64,000 bases of DNA from Bradyrhizobium sp. LMTR 3. Lineage in GTDB: Bacteria > Pseudomonadota > Alphaproteobacteria > Rhizobiales > Xanthobacteraceae. Shown here piece by piece: positions 7,779 to 8,909 of the stretch; the first letter of the stretch is position 1; every line of letters begins with the position of its first letter. Where the stretch lies: positions 62,001 through 126,000 of the forward strand of contig NZ_MAXC01000001.1 of assembly GCF_001693485.1 (NCBI RefSeq), in the 5' to 3' direction. The notes below the pieces were generated by a model that worked only from the letters and a program-made list of their open reading frames with translations, was not told the DNA's origin and searched no databases. A program made the translations under genes and the position numbers.

Positions 7779-8909
7779 ATGCTCGACTGGTCCGAACCAT
7801 CCGCATCCCCGCGTCAGACGCCGCCGCCCGTCGTGGTGCAATTCGTTACCCAGGCCGAACAAACCGGCCTCGGCATGATAGATCGTCGCGGCGGACGCGT
7901 ATCCGTCGACGACAAGCGGATGATCAACTGCCGCGCCGACGTCAATCAATTGCTGCCGCTGAAATACAAATGGGCCTGGGAGAAATATCTCGCCGGCTGC
8001 AACAATCACTGGATGCCTACCGAAGTCTCGATGCAGGCCGACATCGCGCTGTGGAAGTCGCGCGATGGGCTGACGGAAGACGAGCGCCGCGCCATCAAGC
8101 GCAACCTCGGCTTCTTCGCGGCGTCCGAAAGCCTGGTCGCCAACAATATCGTGCTGGCGATCTACCGTCATCTGACCAATCCGGAGTGCCGGCAATATCT
8201 GCTGAGGCAATCCTTCGAGGAGGCGGTTCACACCCACACCTTTCAATACATCGTCGAAAGCTTGGGGCTGGACGAGGGCGAGCTGTTCAACATGTATCGC
8301 GAGGTGCCGTCGATTACCGACAAGGCGGCCTGGGCGCTGAAGCACACGCAGCATCTCGACAATCCCGATTTCAGGACCGGGACACCGCAAGCCGATCAGG
8401 CGTTCCTGCGCGATCTCGTCGCCTTCTACGTCATATTCGAAGGCATGTGGTTCTATACGGGCTTCGCGCAGATCCTCTCGCTCGGCCGCCGCAACAAGAT
8501 GGTCGGCATTGCCGAGCAGTACCAGTACATACTGCGCGATGAGTCCATCCACCTGAATTTCGGCATCGATGTCATCAACCAGATCAAGATCGAAAACCCG
8601 CATCTCTGGACCAAGGCGTTCCAGGACGAAGTCCGCGCCATGGTGCGCGAGGCGGCCGAGCTGGAAGCGGCCTACGGGCGGGACACCATGCCGCGCGGCT
8701 TTCTCGGGTTGAATGCGGCGCTGTGCGAGAGCTACATGCACTTCATCGCCAACCGCCGCTGCGCGCAGCTCGGGCTGCAGCGGGTGTTCGACGAGACCGA
8801 GAATCCGTTTCCCTGGATGTCGGAAGCGATGGACCTGAAGAAGGAGAAGAATTTCTTCGAGACGCGGGTGATCGAGTACCAGAACGGCGGTGCGCTGAGC
8901 TGGGAGTAG
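7779..8909 (+). CDS. nrdB: Ribonucleotide reductase beta subunit, class Ic type (Phe replaces radical Tyr)
   Basis: Radical-generating subunit partnered with NrdA, 376 residues from the ATG at 7779 with AGAGG at 7766-7770. The six metal ligands read as E117 (AASESL), E148 and H151 (EEAVH), E221 (FEGMW), and E255 and H258 (DESIH). Spacings of 31, 3, 73, 34 and 3 residues match those I recall for Chlamydia trachomatis R2 (E89, E120, H123, E193, E227, H230). The radical-tyrosine position, seven residues after the second ligand, is F155 (HTHTFQYIV), and the first ligand is Glu rather than Asp. These are the marks of class Ic enzymes, which use a Mn(IV)/Fe(III) cofactor instead of a tyrosyl radical. 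The C-terminal VIEYQNGG holds the radical-transfer Tyr. Confidence 0.95.
   Translation: MLDWSEPSASPRQTPPPVVVQFVTQAEQTGLGMIDRRGGRVSVDDKRMINCRADVNQLLPLKYKWAWEKYLAGCNNHWMPTEVSMQADIALWKSRDGLTEDERRAIKRNLGFFAASESLVANNIVLAIYRHLTNPECRQYLLRQSFEEAVHTHTFQYIVESLGLDEGELFNMYREVPSITDKAAWALKHTQHLDNPDFRTGTPQADQAFLRDLVAFYVIFEGMWFYTGFAQILSLGRRNKMVGIAEQYQYILRDESIHLNFGIDVINQIKIENPHLWTKAFQDEVRAMVREAAELEAAYGRDTMPRGFLGLNAALCESYMHFIANRRCAQLGLQRVFDETENPFPWMSEAMDLKKEKNFFETRVIEYQNGGALSWE

Follow-up and report, generated by a model that had tools for sequence, protein, structure and literature searches.

The 64,000-nucleotide stretch of Bradyrhizobium sp. LMTR 3 analyzed here (the window; assembly GCF_001693485.1, contig NZ_MAXC01000001.1, positions 62,001 to 126,000 of the forward strand) carries nrdA and nrdB, which encode the catalytic and radical subunits of a class I ribonucleotide reductase, behind a cobalamin (vitamin B12) riboswitch (Table 1). 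NrdB is the single class I small subunit of the genome (7.83 Mb, 55 contigs). A sequence-only reading had described it as a class Ic protein with Phe at the radical position and Glu as the first metal ligand. The relatives of NrdB compared here are the best 80 of 582 matches, termed named loci, to which all named-locus counts refer. Additionally, 61 genomes of the family and 60 of the genus were analyzed; LMTR 3 belongs to both samples and was counted once.

Table 1. Genes, leader elements and diagnostic codons in the window, and second riboswitches with GbcA-like genes at related loci
Feature	Position	Strand	Basis
prpD-type methylcitrate dehydratase	914..2467	-	PrpD model 901 bits, below cut-off 950
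acyl-CoA thioesterase-type protein (4HBT)	2464..2895	-	
ScfR/RamB-type regulator (HTH, Peptidase_M78, ScfRs)	3028..4455	+	RamB model 611 bits, below cut-off 700
cobalamin riboswitch aptamer (RF00174)	4517..4736	+	127.1 bits, gathering score 31.5, model 1-189 (full length)
predicted regulatory hairpin after aptamer, CGGGG loop	4741..4756	+	sequence; comparison of genus leaders
predicted masking hairpin over nrdA start	4815..4854	+	CCCC pairs likely ribosome site GGGG; GACATC pairs GATGTC (holds start codon)
nrdA, catalytic subunit, two ATP-cone stretches	4850..7753	+	NF005544 1727 bits, cut-off 965
nrdB, class Ic-type radical subunit, 376 amino acids	7779..8909	+	NF005550 680 bits, cut-off 309; alignments
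Glu117 codon, first metal ligand (Asp in class Ia/Ib)	8127..8129	+	alignment; counted from ATG 7779
Phe155 codon, radical-tyrosine position	8241..8243	+	alignment; counted from ATG 7779
GbcA-like Rieske oxygenase behind second riboswitch	L022 7498-9061	+	
GbcA-like Rieske oxygenase behind second riboswitch	L025 7334-8906	+	
GbcA-like Rieske oxygenase behind second riboswitch	L036 9124-10662	-	
GbcA-like Rieske oxygenase behind second riboswitch	L075 7203-8751	+	

The open reading frame of nrdB and all residues named by the sequence-only reading were found as described. The start codon ATG 7779 agrees with homologues; an alternative in-frame GTG is located at 7704. Residues E117, E148, H151, F155, E221, E255, and H258 align to D85, E116, H119, Y123, E205, E239, and H242 of Escherichia coli NrdB (numbered from the gene, one higher than in the literature). 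Alignment with Chlamydia trachomatis R2 (PDB 1syy) confirmed the proposed likeness in ligand spacing: with a constant offset of 28, the same residues correspond to E89, E120, H123, F127, E193, E227, and H230, and Phe155 falls on Y123 of the E. coli and F127 of the chlamydial protein, Glu117 on D85 and E89. According to the portion of PMC8463856 available, the pairing Phe/Glu of radical position and first ligand denotes class Ic, Tyr/Asp classes Ia and Ib, and Tyr/Glu class Id. NrdB also contains Tyr367, the C-terminal radical-transfer tyrosine. Judged by every sequence feature examined, namely Phe155, Glu117 with the five other ligands, and Tyr367, and by the ATP cones of NrdA, it joins class Ic as a new member, as had been proposed; a class Ic protein is in itself not exotic.

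Because NrdB has the Phe/Glu pairing of class Ic, its oxidant likely resides on a Mn/Fe centre and not on a tyrosine, and from its homology to C. trachomatis R2 we infer a Mn(IV)/Fe(III) cofactor. It is highly unlikely that Phe155 and Glu117 go together with a dimanganese (class Id-like) or a diiron centre in this protein. Metal choice is not readable with certainty from sequence, and mismetallation of this scaffold is noted in the same portion of PMC8463856; however, class Id as described there retains Tyr (Tyr/Glu) where NrdB has Phe, the C. trachomatis R2 matches NrdB with 457 bits, and the R2 protein of Saccharopolyspora erythraea is 86% identical to it over 338 residues. Other assignments were rejected. 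Class Ia would have a Tyr radical site with Asp as first ligand instead of Phe155 and Glu117. Against class Id stand Phe155 and the two ATP-cone stretches of the partner NrdA, since class Id NrdA has no ATP cone. The best R2lox oxidase model reached 53 bits versus a cut-off of 194, and Tyr367, absent from R2lox, is present.

The C. trachomatis class Ic protein R2c (PDB 1syy, 4d8f, 4m1i) resembles NrdB in the six ligands with Glu first, in Phe at the radical position, and in the C-terminal Tyr. Unlike this protein, NrdB has Trp224, and nrdAB is located behind a B12 riboswitch and adjoins B12-independent isozymes. The S. erythraea R2 (PDB 6y2n, a chain assigned to this species in the accessible text of PMC7467353) has the same seven ligand and radical residues and also Trp224 and is, unlike NrdB, actinobacterial.

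Among the 80 named loci, 66 combine Glu117 with Phe155 (E+F), 14 carry Asp and Tyr at these positions (D+Y), and none is mixed. E148, H151, E221, E255, H258, and Tyr367 are invariant in 80/80; in this alignment the pattern of invariant ligands with positions 117 and 155 changing together exceeds chance. Position 224 is Trp in 66/66 E+F and Phe in 14/14 D+Y sequences, and position 154 is Thr in 65/66 and Ala in 14/14, respectively. A further 31 loci, some of which duplicate named loci (L140 is the gene of L048), comprised 30 E+F copies and one truncated copy with Phe in which position 117 was unreadable. The D+Y siblings (L074, L076-L085, L087-L089) are all gammaproteobacterial by title and 63-71% identical to NrdB; the nearest named relative of NrdB is that of Bradyrhizobium sp. 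AUGA SZCCT0283 (L010; 96% identity). A quick tree of 82 rows, calculated with columns 117, 154, 155, 224, and 227 left out, contained one trait change with support 88; since the branch leading to the E. coli outgroup is very long, the tree gives this change no direction. The difference between Tyr/Asp and Phe/Glu is thereby open to study within one close family, 14 D+Y versus 66 E+F members differing jointly at positions 117, 155, and 224. Surprise at a class Ic protein in a free-living alphaproteobacterium, as voiced earlier, is misplaced: 30 of the 80 are alphaproteobacterial, and actinobacterial, acidobacterial, and other relatives have the Phe/Glu signature as well. A clade that unites chlamydial R2c with sequences from alphaproteobacteria and actinobacteria had already been described by Lundin et al. 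2010, as cited in the section of PMC3824934 consulted.

The partner gene nrdA starts at ATG 4850 or at the in-frame TTG 4847. Counted from ATG 4850, NrdA residues 373, 587, 602, and 903/904 align to E. coli C225, C439, C462, and Y730/Y731. No cysteines align to E. coli C754 and C759, yet NrdA ends in a tail containing a CxxC motif.

The leader of nrdA was compared among the 19 of 60 genus genomes that carry the class Ic gene. The hairpin following the aptamer is identical in 17/19 leaders, with single-base changes in L123 and L129, and its CGGGG loop could pair with a CCCCCG loop of the aptamer; it may have the kissing-loop role of such hairpins in cobalamin riboswitches in general. Further downstream, GACATCCGGCCCC (4815-4827) can pair with the GGGG...GATGTC segment around the nrdA start (4839-4854). 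The predicted masking hairpin folds with -15.2 kcal/mol, a value reached by 4 of 500 shuffled sequences, and its helix was found in 16/19 genus leaders. The masking pairing and the upstream pairing that the free fold prefers exclude one another, which fits a switch that would mask the ribosome site while cobalamin holds the loop. A transcription terminator behind the aptamer was considered and rejected: the hairpin at 4776-4796 lacks a following T run, as judged from the sequence and its predicted fold. Because of this missing T run, translational masking is favoured.

Riboswitches were counted with Infernal (RF00174) because a scan for the B12-box pattern missed nrdA-leader elements in L021, L022, L031, L035, L039, L041, L037, L042, L046, and L047 and one of two elements in L048, all of which Infernal detected. 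The scan covered the named loci except 25 (19 actinobacterial, 6 gammaproteobacterial). In 27 of the 28 genus and family genomes with the gene, the riboswitch ends 2,987-3,209 nucleotides before the nrdB match and shares its strand; in the 28th (G097) nrdAB is damaged and the riboswitch is located 775 nucleotides upstream of the nrdB remnant. Among the named loci a riboswitch precedes nrdA in 23 of 28 alphaproteobacterial loci with upstream sequence (two of the 30, L012 and L018, begin inside nrdA), in all three acidobacterial loci, in the one Eremiobacterota locus, and in 5/9 actinobacterial loci scanned. The locus of G097 (L139) retains the riboswitch beside remnants of both nrdA and nrdB; L134 (G092) likewise retains it, and there a stop codon interrupts nrdB and nrdA is split in two. 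Such damage fits a dispensable backup that is being lost.

LMTR 3 also encodes a B12-dependent reductase, NrdJ, together with a MetH-type gene and genes of the methylmalonyl-CoA mutase family. An NrdJ-type gene was detected in 20/20 family genomes examined (9 with and 11 without the class Ic gene, drawn from the 61), genes being called by split match and length, with the NCBIfam test applied to NrdJ of LMTR 3 only. The class Ic gene is accessory in comparison, occurring in 10/61 family and 19/60 genus genomes. Six cobalamin riboswitches were found in LMTR 3: before nrdAB, before two metE genes, before a TonB receptor gene (BtuB-like matches, under the cut-offs), upstream of cobW-cobN, and at one more site.

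In our view nrdAB very probably encodes a B12-repressed class Ic reductase, likely of the Mn/Fe type, which backs up the cobalt-dependent NrdJ. Binding of cobalamin would close the loop-loop contact behind the aptamer; the closed contact would let 4815-4827 fold onto the ribosome site and start codon of nrdA and turn translation off. Without cobalamin, the same segment would pair upstream and nrdA would be translated. Upon B12 shortage, synthesis of deoxynucleoside triphosphates (dNTP) would then shift from the cobalt enzyme NrdJ to the manganese/iron enzyme NrdAB, and, in the same manner, MetE would replace MetH and the methylcitrate cycle would replace methylmalonyl-CoA mutase. The riboswitch, the presence of NrdJ, MetH, and mutase genes in the genome, and the nearby metE and prpBCD genes favour cobalamin shortage as the setting.

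Several observations weigh against this interpretation. The exact masking helix is absent from three of the 19 genus leaders (L133, L137, L138), and positions 4737-4870 folded alone favour pairing of GACATC upstream, as expected of the ON state and equally of no switch at all. No riboswitch was found before nrdA in the stretches scanned of alphaproteobacterial L013, L034, L038, L040, and L043, of the single Chloroflexota locus (L063), or of the 11 gammaproteobacterial loci (8 D+Y, 3 E+F). The actinobacterial exceptions (4/9) comprise L044 and L045 without a riboswitch and L053 and L056 with one only before metE; no nrdA was found in the L053 stretch. Since E+F loci are among those lacking the element, B12 control is no property of class Ic itself. 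The cobalamin riboswitch scan of LMTR 3 revealed none before prpBCD, and these genes together with the regulator lie between metE and nrdAB in just 6/19 genus genomes (LMTR 3, L124, L125, L126, L129, L130). A metE gene is also located near nrdAB in L088, a locus of the D+Y type, so that class Ic is not the only type to show this linkage. Finally, the second shell of NrdB differs from that of C. trachomatis R2, which has Phe at position 224 in the alignment; because of this Phe, Trp224 is no class Ic requirement.

Leftwards of prpD, outside the window (L090), follow prpC, prpB, and then metE with its own riboswitch (C2:60499-60713). The regulator gene upstream of the nrdA leader likely controls the adjacent methylcitrate genes, a target deduced from its position. 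The second metE of LMTR 3, which also has its own cobalamin riboswitch, is located at L094 1939-4350 on the minus strand. Within the genus, metE was found at most 7.5 kb from nrdAB in 15/19 genomes (LMTR 3, L122-L127, L129-L132, L135-L137, L139); the others are L128 and L134, which are short contigs, and L133 and L138, which are not. In L122 and L123, both close relatives, metE and nrdAB are direct neighbours in divergent orientation. The fetched stretch contained metE in 3/9 loci of the family set (L100, L102, L104; L105 is a short contig) and in 11/80 named loci, including a fragment below the score limit in L018.

Inherited or chance gene order without a functional unit could also account for this linkage. 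Most genus cases represent one shared divergent arrangement in related genomes, and 69/80 named loci had no metE in the flank examined (up to 6 kb). We regard this explanation as unlikely, however, because four arrangements recur in different lineages: divergent in the genus, Afipia, Azorhizobium, and an acidobacterium; convergent in G022 and on a Methylocella tundrae plasmid; tandem with metE upstream in Labrys; and tandem with metE downstream in G006 and Amycolatopsis. Moreover, a 20-kb stretch amounts to about 0.26% of a 7.8-Mb genome by plain arithmetic without tree correction. Three annotated plasmid regions were fetched of 42 plasmid records matched. Plasmid 3 of M. tundrae (L106) carries the convergent genes in a region that also encodes a transposase and an integrase; metH lies beside nrdAB in the Phyllobacterium zundukense region, and the Aureimonas region contains neither metE nor metH.

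Repeatedly, nrdAB and metE meet in varied arrangements across alphaproteobacteria, an acidobacterium, Amycolatopsis, and the M. tundrae plasmid, sometimes together with the B12-independent methylcitrate cycle. Tentatively, and with slightly less than even confidence, we suggest a modular B12-free toolkit in which one class of cobalamin-sensing RNA would shift the synthesis of DNA precursors from the cobalt enzyme NrdJ to the manganese/iron enzyme class Ic NrdAB and, together with it, that of methionine from MetH to MetE. If this is true, class Ic outside Chlamydia would largely answer cobalamin shortage, not iron shortage. As to why class Ic reductases exist, the part of PMC4118035 available offers iron limitation as speculation; cobalamin shortage would provide an alternative selective setting, testable in culturable soil bacteria.

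The sequence-only reading had seen in nrdAB a reductase under B12 control that is suited to oxidative or iron-poor conditions. Its first part holds as a prediction, given the aptamer upstream of nrdA; the second gained no support, and the gene context points to cobalamin shortage. Retention of nrdAB for oxidative or iron-poor conditions, with the B12 riboswitch as a secondary layer, appears distinctly unlikely. Haem-uptake genes do adjoin nrdAB on the P. zundukense plasmid, but this is one of the three plasmid regions, and metE and cobalamin riboswitches are what recurs beside nrdAB in the loci checked, iron and oxidative-stress genes having not been searched systematically.

The logic of a cobalamin riboswitch on nrdAB with NrdJ as the B12-dependent partner corresponds to that of nrdABS of Streptomyces coelicolor, a class I reductase under a B12 riboswitch beside NrdJ; in the text available (PMC4991794) this enzyme is called class Ia, unlike the class Ic-type NrdB described here. 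In the genus sample searched for the Streptomyces question, an NrdB-family match at E <= 1e-60 occurred in 1/41 genomes, and this was the seed genome. Given this sole match, we no longer consider the Streptomyces enzyme a mislabelled member of the NrdB family; as judged from the genus-sample search and not from its own sequence, the S. coelicolor enzyme probably belongs to another subfamily. The riboswitches before the two metE genes of LMTR 3 are comparable in that a B12-independent isozyme would be repressed by B12, with the difference that they serve methionine synthesis and the nrdAB riboswitch dNTP synthesis. Class Ic enzymes and class I reductases under a B12 riboswitch were each known; a class Ic reductase behind a cobalamin riboswitch, here repeatedly near metE, was not found described in the literature searched, as far as the partial texts extend.

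At some loci a second cobalamin riboswitch near nrdAB precedes a Rieske oxygenase gene that resembles the gene for the glycine betaine monooxygenase GbcA but scores below the cut-off (507-543 against 670 bits; Table 1) and that in L075 is followed by a ferredoxin-reductase-type gene. Downstream of nrdB, the window contains a SASA-type esterase gene (9054-9926, minus strand), also found in several genus relatives. A terC RNA (RF03067, 48.4 bits) was detected at 21533-21588 on the minus strand.
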